Made by a program: the position numbers and the translations under genes
Shown: positions 26,081 through 26,506 of the stretch, piece by piece
How the letters are laid out: each line of letters begins with the position of its first letter
Position numbering within the stretch: position 1 is the stretch's first letter
NCBI GenBank assembly: GCA_015655075.1
Contig: JAATFT010000033.1
Location: forward strand, 1 to 64,000
DNA length: 64,000 nt
DNA from: Clostridiales bacterium
GTDB taxonomy: Bacteria > Bacillota > Clostridia > Lachnospirales > Lachnospiraceae
Direction of reading: 5' to 3'
The notes under the pieces: model-generated
Database searches by the model: none
Told to the model about the DNA's origin: nothing
What the model saw: the letters and a program-made list of their open reading frames with translations, nothing else

Positions 26081-26506
26081 TCAATATGCAGTTTTCAATG
26101 CCTTGGCTAACACAACCGGATCCTTCTTAAATGGTGTAACCGGACATATCTTAGCGGTTGGCAATCCTAGAATGTGTTTGAAAAATGCTTGTGCCGGGCT
26201 GGATGCTCCACTTTGTGGGAGGCAAGGAGCGATTTTGGGTGCGTAGTGGTGCTACGCTCCCAAAATTGCGACGCAGAATACCGCAAAGTGGGGCGGTCAG
26301 AGCGGTGCAATGATTTTTCAAACACGCTTTAGAAGCTTATATACTGCGATCCTTGCAGCCCTTACGGAATACTCTTCTGTAAATACCATATCCTCCGGGA
26401 TTTCAACAAATTGACTGATCATAGCAAAGTTGGTTGAGTTTTCCGGCGCTACCTGTGGCTTGTCTGTCATTTTTCTAGGCTGGAATTGTGCGTCGGTGTA
26501 TGGCAT
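26081..26506 (-). pseudogene. C-terminal fragment of oleate hydratase, interrupted by repeat element A copy 1
   Basis: Minus strand MPYTDAQFQPRKMTDKPQVAPENSTNFAMISQFVEIPEDMVFTEEYSVRAARIAVYKLL [insert 26171-26329] LGLPTAKICPVTPFKKDPVVLAKALKTAY*. Confidence 0.8.
26171..26329. mobile_element. MITE-like element A, copy 1 (about 159 bp), flanked by TAG direct repeats
   Basis: Terminal inverted repeats GTGTTTGAAAAAT.../...ATTTTTCAAACAC; internal stems CCACTTTG/CAAAGTGG, TTTTGGG/CCCAAAA, GCGTAG/CTACGC; splits an oleate-hydratase frame. Confidence 0.8.

Follow-up and report, generated by a model that had tools for sequence, protein, structure and literature searches.

A palindromic MITE with ends of the IS5/IS427 type inserted in an oleate hydratase remnant of a Clostridiales bacterium

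What interrupts the end of the oleate hydratase-like reading frame on the minus strand of this DNA, and what could have brought it there? The stretch analyzed, referred to here as the window (64,000 nucleotides), is part of contig C48 in an assembly of 4.51 Mb and 98 contigs that is 78.6% complete. At 26168-26331, a 160-bp body lies between two TA copies. The features of the locus are as follows.

26170..26329, plus strand: MITE body, a 160-bp imperfect palindrome, GCTT end to the left (near-identical sequence at 40 scored places of the same genome; copy alignment and consensus; fold)
26168..26169, no strand: TA target-site duplication, left (flank statistics, empty sites)
26330..26331, no strand: TA target-site duplication, right (flank statistics, empty sites)
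26170..26186, plus strand: left terminal inverted repeat GAATGTGTTTGAAAAAT (terminal-repeat pattern match)
26313..26329, minus strand: right terminal inverted repeat, in minus-strand reading AAGCGTGTTTGAAAAAT (terminal-repeat pattern match)
26332..26506, minus strand: oleate hydratase remnant upstream of the insertion (frame common with ORF 26318-26506; PF06100 positions 440-495 of 495; alignments)
26081..26167, minus strand: last codons and stop of the remnant, downstream of the insertion (29-residue match to an intact gene of G037, E = 1.8e-8; alignment)
26318..26320, minus strand: in-frame TGA supplied by the element (frame reading with and without the insert)

With the insert present, the minus-strand frame ends in ...YKLLKRV at the TGA of 26318-26320. 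The ORF 26318-26506 corresponds to the C-terminus of the oleate hydratase family (profile match to PF06100, 440-495/495, E = 4e-24). Once the 162 bp from 26168 to 26329 are taken out, one TA being kept, the frame reads ...ARIAVYKLLGLPTAKICPVTPFKKDPVVLAKALKTAY up to its stop. This joined frame is identical at 68 of 87 positions, gap-free across the junction, to the product of an intact oleate hydratase gene from another family of the same order (L062). Compared with the copy in the congener G001 (L077), 55 of 86 residues are identical, with a one-residue gap just beyond the junction. The initial annotation had proposed to remove 26171-26329 plus one TAG; this yields the same joined sequence, and its empty-site reconstruction is correct. 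It had also stated that the segment is not ancestral, which the intact oleate hydratases of relatives bear out, as they lack the element. The opposite view, that the segment belonged to the oleate hydratase locus from the start and that no insertion took place, has practically no probability left: besides these intact genes, the same sequence occurs at many unrelated places, and we found nothing in favor of this view.

The gene that was hit is itself incomplete. As the first ~440 positions of PF06100 are missing at the locus, it is 5'-truncated and is a fragment with or without the insertion. The oleate hydratase family is present in 11 of the 15 genomes of the genus, with one to three copies per relative and an apparently full-length copy in the 10 besides the genome studied. 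In the latter, the family is represented only by the remnant at the insertion and by an N-terminal piece at C63:5-343 (L073), which belongs to another oleate hydratase gene and is ended by the contig end. Because the element hit a gene fragment, the consequence of the insertion for the host was probably small.

Both ends of the element match TAGAGYGTGTTTGAAAAAT with one mismatch each (26168-26186 on the plus strand and 26313-26331 on the minus strand), for a chance expectation of 0.06 matches in the window at up to three mismatches. The element is short and non-coding, with terminal inverted repeats of ~17-19 bp and a palindromic interior. We determined the target-site duplication from the 72 copies of the same genome that are bordered by TA on both sides. 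The left TA is preceded by C in 59, T in 11, and A in 2, and is followed, inside the element, by G in 68; the right TA is followed by G in 49, A in 20, T in 2, and C in 1. Since the inner-left and outer-right bases disagree, the duplication is TA, within a Y-TA-R target, and neither TAG nor CTAG. The 3-bp TAG duplication proposed initially is ruled out by these flanks: the apparent TAG repeat at 26168-26331 comes from the initial G of the element on one side and, by chance, from a G following the target TA on the other. The insertion as such stands, and its body is corrected to 26170-26329 (160 bp). A second locus agrees with a duplication of TA. There, a copy (L274, 17678-17841) is inserted at the stop codon of a gene for a sugar-transporter permease, and the equivalent locus of G001 has both flanks and a single TA, without the element. 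G006, G007, and G010 also lack it at this locus, their downstream flanks being more diverged.

The same terminal repeat was found 417 times in the genome at up to two mismatches, and never with the reversed-pattern control. Copies were read in 2.01 Mb, under half of the total, where 105 paired elements were identified (52 per Mb); the element is one of some 200 copies. From TA to TA, 69 of the 105 measure 164-165 bp, and the shorter elements seem to have lost internal parts of the hairpin. Most copies are intergenic, an ORF of at least 100 amino acids in the joined flanks spanning the site in 13 of the 105. Seven contigs (C96, C58, C5, C17, C47, C60, and C85) start at or inside a copy, which makes the repeat a probable cause of assembly breaks.

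Among 60 relatives, only G001 has the terminal repeat in high number (49); elsewhere in the genus it is sparse. Other Lachnospiraceae have it abundantly: we counted 191 ends in Anaerobutyricum hallii DSM 3353 (G061), 313 in G062, and 243 in G063, and the matches listed among named genomes include Blautia wexlerae, Eubacterium plexicaudatum, and MAGs of Roseburia and Acetatifactor. Full-length elements of other Lachnospiraceae have the 164-bp size and the same plan, with ~60-66% identity to the consensus of the genome studied. Searches of plasmids gave no match to the repeat, and no Rfam family matched at the gathering score. We found neither an occurrence of the repeat string in the literature nor a report on such MITEs in Lachnospiraceae, and a 2024 review of MITEs does not mention Clostridia.

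Several other repeats were seen in the course of these searches. A second family (TAGTGYRCTGACAAGTTGATA..., for example in L257, L262, and L291) has 21 core matches in 1.95 Mb of the same genome, and several of its copies directly abut an end of the MITE. Solitary terminal repeats, with a partial or absent interior (L093 2508, L123 10912, L124 4419, L129 1809 and 3552), stand a short distance upstream of ORFs and carry TTGAAA, similar to a -35 box. Identical or closely similar ends (TAGAGCGTGTTTGAAAA) border unrelated interiors in L096 and L097 (G053, from a different family of the order), in L157 of Desulfonema magnum, and in L172 of a Deltaproteobacteria MAG, which suggests that this end sequence is widespread.

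Which transposase might move such an element? In the genome studied, profile searches with PF13340 and PF13358 gave no match, and none of three loci matching PF01609 has MITE ends. Widely spaced pairs of terminal repeats turned out to enclose host genes between two MITEs, and a 1430-bp repeat pair in L173 contains a sensor-kinase-like ORF and no transposase. PF13340 matches in ten other repeat-carrying genomes led to two complete elements, one of 884 bp in A. hallii (L334, 949-1832) and one of 846 bp in Lachnospiraceae UBA7179 (L335, 982-1827). Both carry TAGAGCGYGTTTGAAAAA at their two ends and have TA on either side in a Y-TA-R context, a putative 2-bp duplication. Each has two ORFs, encoding DUF4096 (PF13340) and DDE_Tnp_1 (PF01609) domains and assigned to the IS5 family by NCBIfam (NF033580); the orfA products are 72% identical. 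Between the two ORFs, a run of A followed by G constitutes a putative frameshift motif. From their sequence, these partner elements are members of the IS5 family, of the IS427 type. The MITE and the IS copies seen have only the ~19 terminal bases in common, and the MITE is therefore not a plain internal deletion of these IS copies. A subfamily with the end TAGGGCGTGTCTGAAAACT was also noted (L259 16702-16866 and L300 15353-15511; L085 from ~1350 to 1861); in the congener G011, a similar end adjoins a decayed IS5-type (DUF4096) transposase.

Traces of an autonomous element exist in the genome studied as well. By local tblastn, the last 33-34 residues of orfB were found at three contig ends (the starts of C41 and C26 and the end of C44). 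All three agree in this DNA and continue into TAGAGCGTGTTTGAAAAATCGTGAGC (read outside in), with different flanks. It is thus very probable that the genome contains several autonomous copies, nearly identical to one another, at which the assembly broke. We found no complete copy in the assembly, which we attribute to these breaks and to the 78.6% completeness.

We infer that an IS427-type transposase moves the MITE. It would insert the 160-bp body into the TA of a Y-TA-R target, with duplication of the TA. In the present case, the element landed in what was left of the 3' part of an oleate hydratase gene already lacking its 5' part in the sequence as it stands, and it brought an in-frame stop. 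We give a probability of about 0.9 to this overall reading, an IS5/IS427-type MITE mobilized by a matching transposase and inserted with a TA duplication into the remnant. The family is new but of a known kind, a mini-transposon moved by the enzyme of a full-size relative. The initial description of a MITE-like insertion in an oleate hydratase remnant thus withstands comparison with the intact genes of relatives, the genome-wide search for copies, and the search for transposases with matching ends, complete in L334 and L335 and partial at the three contig ends.

A transposase of the IS630/Tc1 type, as proposed for RUP, would also account for the TA duplication, and transposases matching PF13358 are present in seven of ten repeat-carrying genomes. 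However, no PF13358 locus is bounded by the repeat, save for nearby ordinary MITE copies, the genome studied gave no PF13358 match, and it is IS5-type elements that carry the exact MITE ends. We consider mobilization by such an enzyme very improbable.

Published Paracoccus elements of the IS427 group measure 832-865 bp, mostly generate 2-bp duplications, and contain two ORFs that overlap and are accompanied by a frameshift motif (PMC3281130). The partner IS fits this group in size and in its two-ORF layout (PMC3281130), and the MITE has the terminal repeat and probably the TA duplication in common with the partner, but differs in being 160 bp long and non-coding and in sharing only its ends with the IS copies seen. 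RUP of Streptococcus pneumoniae is likewise a small TA-targeting element with an IS partner that has common ends (PMC2229807), but this partner is IS630-Spn1 and not an IS5/IS427-type element. ERIC/IRU of enterobacteria are also short, non-coding imperfect palindromes with TA ends and a target duplication, found over related genera and with an RNA forming one long stem-loop (PMC2229807, PMC2267715). They are unrelated in sequence and host, ERIC has a listed terminal inverted repeat of 7 bp, compared with ~17-19 bp here, and in the present case a transposase with matching ends has been identified. The Correia/NEMIS repeats of Neisseria resemble the MITE by their TA termini and terminal repeats of ~24 bp (PMC2229807). 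Their ends and host are unrelated to those of the present MITE. Their size variants arise by internal deletion, as those of the element described here seem to do.

One feature, the strand-biased conservation of structure, goes beyond the ordinary for such a MITE, and it is the only one. The whole 160-bp body folds on the plus strand at -92.2 kcal/mol (z -10.9) and on the minus strand at -64.1 kcal/mol, and the better-folding strand is the same one in each of the 77 full-length copies, with a mean margin of ~30 kcal/mol. In 22 elements from many genomes, the hairpin pairing is kept in 94.8% of cells, against 33-55% in slid controls, and both partners have changed in 27 of 56 pairs, a number reached in none of 500 shuffles. 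With pairing assigned by sequence symmetry and not by energy, transition-type mismatches on the better-folding strand are G.U rather than A.C in a ratio of 524:103 among copies of the same genome and 197:34 in other genomes. Counted as distinct pair states, the ratio is 43:19 (p = 0.003, relatedness ignored). As many G.U positions are not the same between lineages, plain inheritance is an incomplete explanation.

These observations could indicate that the hairpin is a structured RNA element in transcripts (a terminator, an RNase site, or a stability element) whose copies are retained for that role, as proposed for ERIC and Correia repeats. The strong fold, the covarying pairing, the better-folding strand common to all full-length copies, and the G.U excess in other genomes speak for such a role. 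We nevertheless regard it as unlikely: copies next to tandem genes split 27:27 between the two orientations, Rfam offers no match, new variants within the genome comprise 40 G.U and 40 A.C with no trend by frequency, and the element remains an inserted mobile element with empty sites at two loci. Resting copies look unconstrained, and the G.U bias seems to belong to propagating lineages. A rare-versus-common test for G.U selection was suggestive at 48 copies, and the effect was lost at 85 copies.

We keep the IS5/IS427-type MITE as the main reading and add to it, tentatively, that the hairpin of one defined strand may function as a single-stranded structure, in RNA or ssDNA, and be kept as such in propagating Lachnospiraceae lineages besides its role as an IS5-type substrate. 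The reading we prefer, no less tentative, is that it may act in the propagation of the element itself, for example on the transposase, a transposition intermediate, or its own transcript, rather than on a neighboring gene.

A concrete MITE/IS pair accounts for hundreds of palindromic repeats in gut Lachnospiraceae, including A. hallii, and probably for some of the assembly breaks in these genomes. With its covariation and strand bias, the hairpin offers a way to test whether a MITE mobilized by a DDE transposase relies on a single-strand structure as well.
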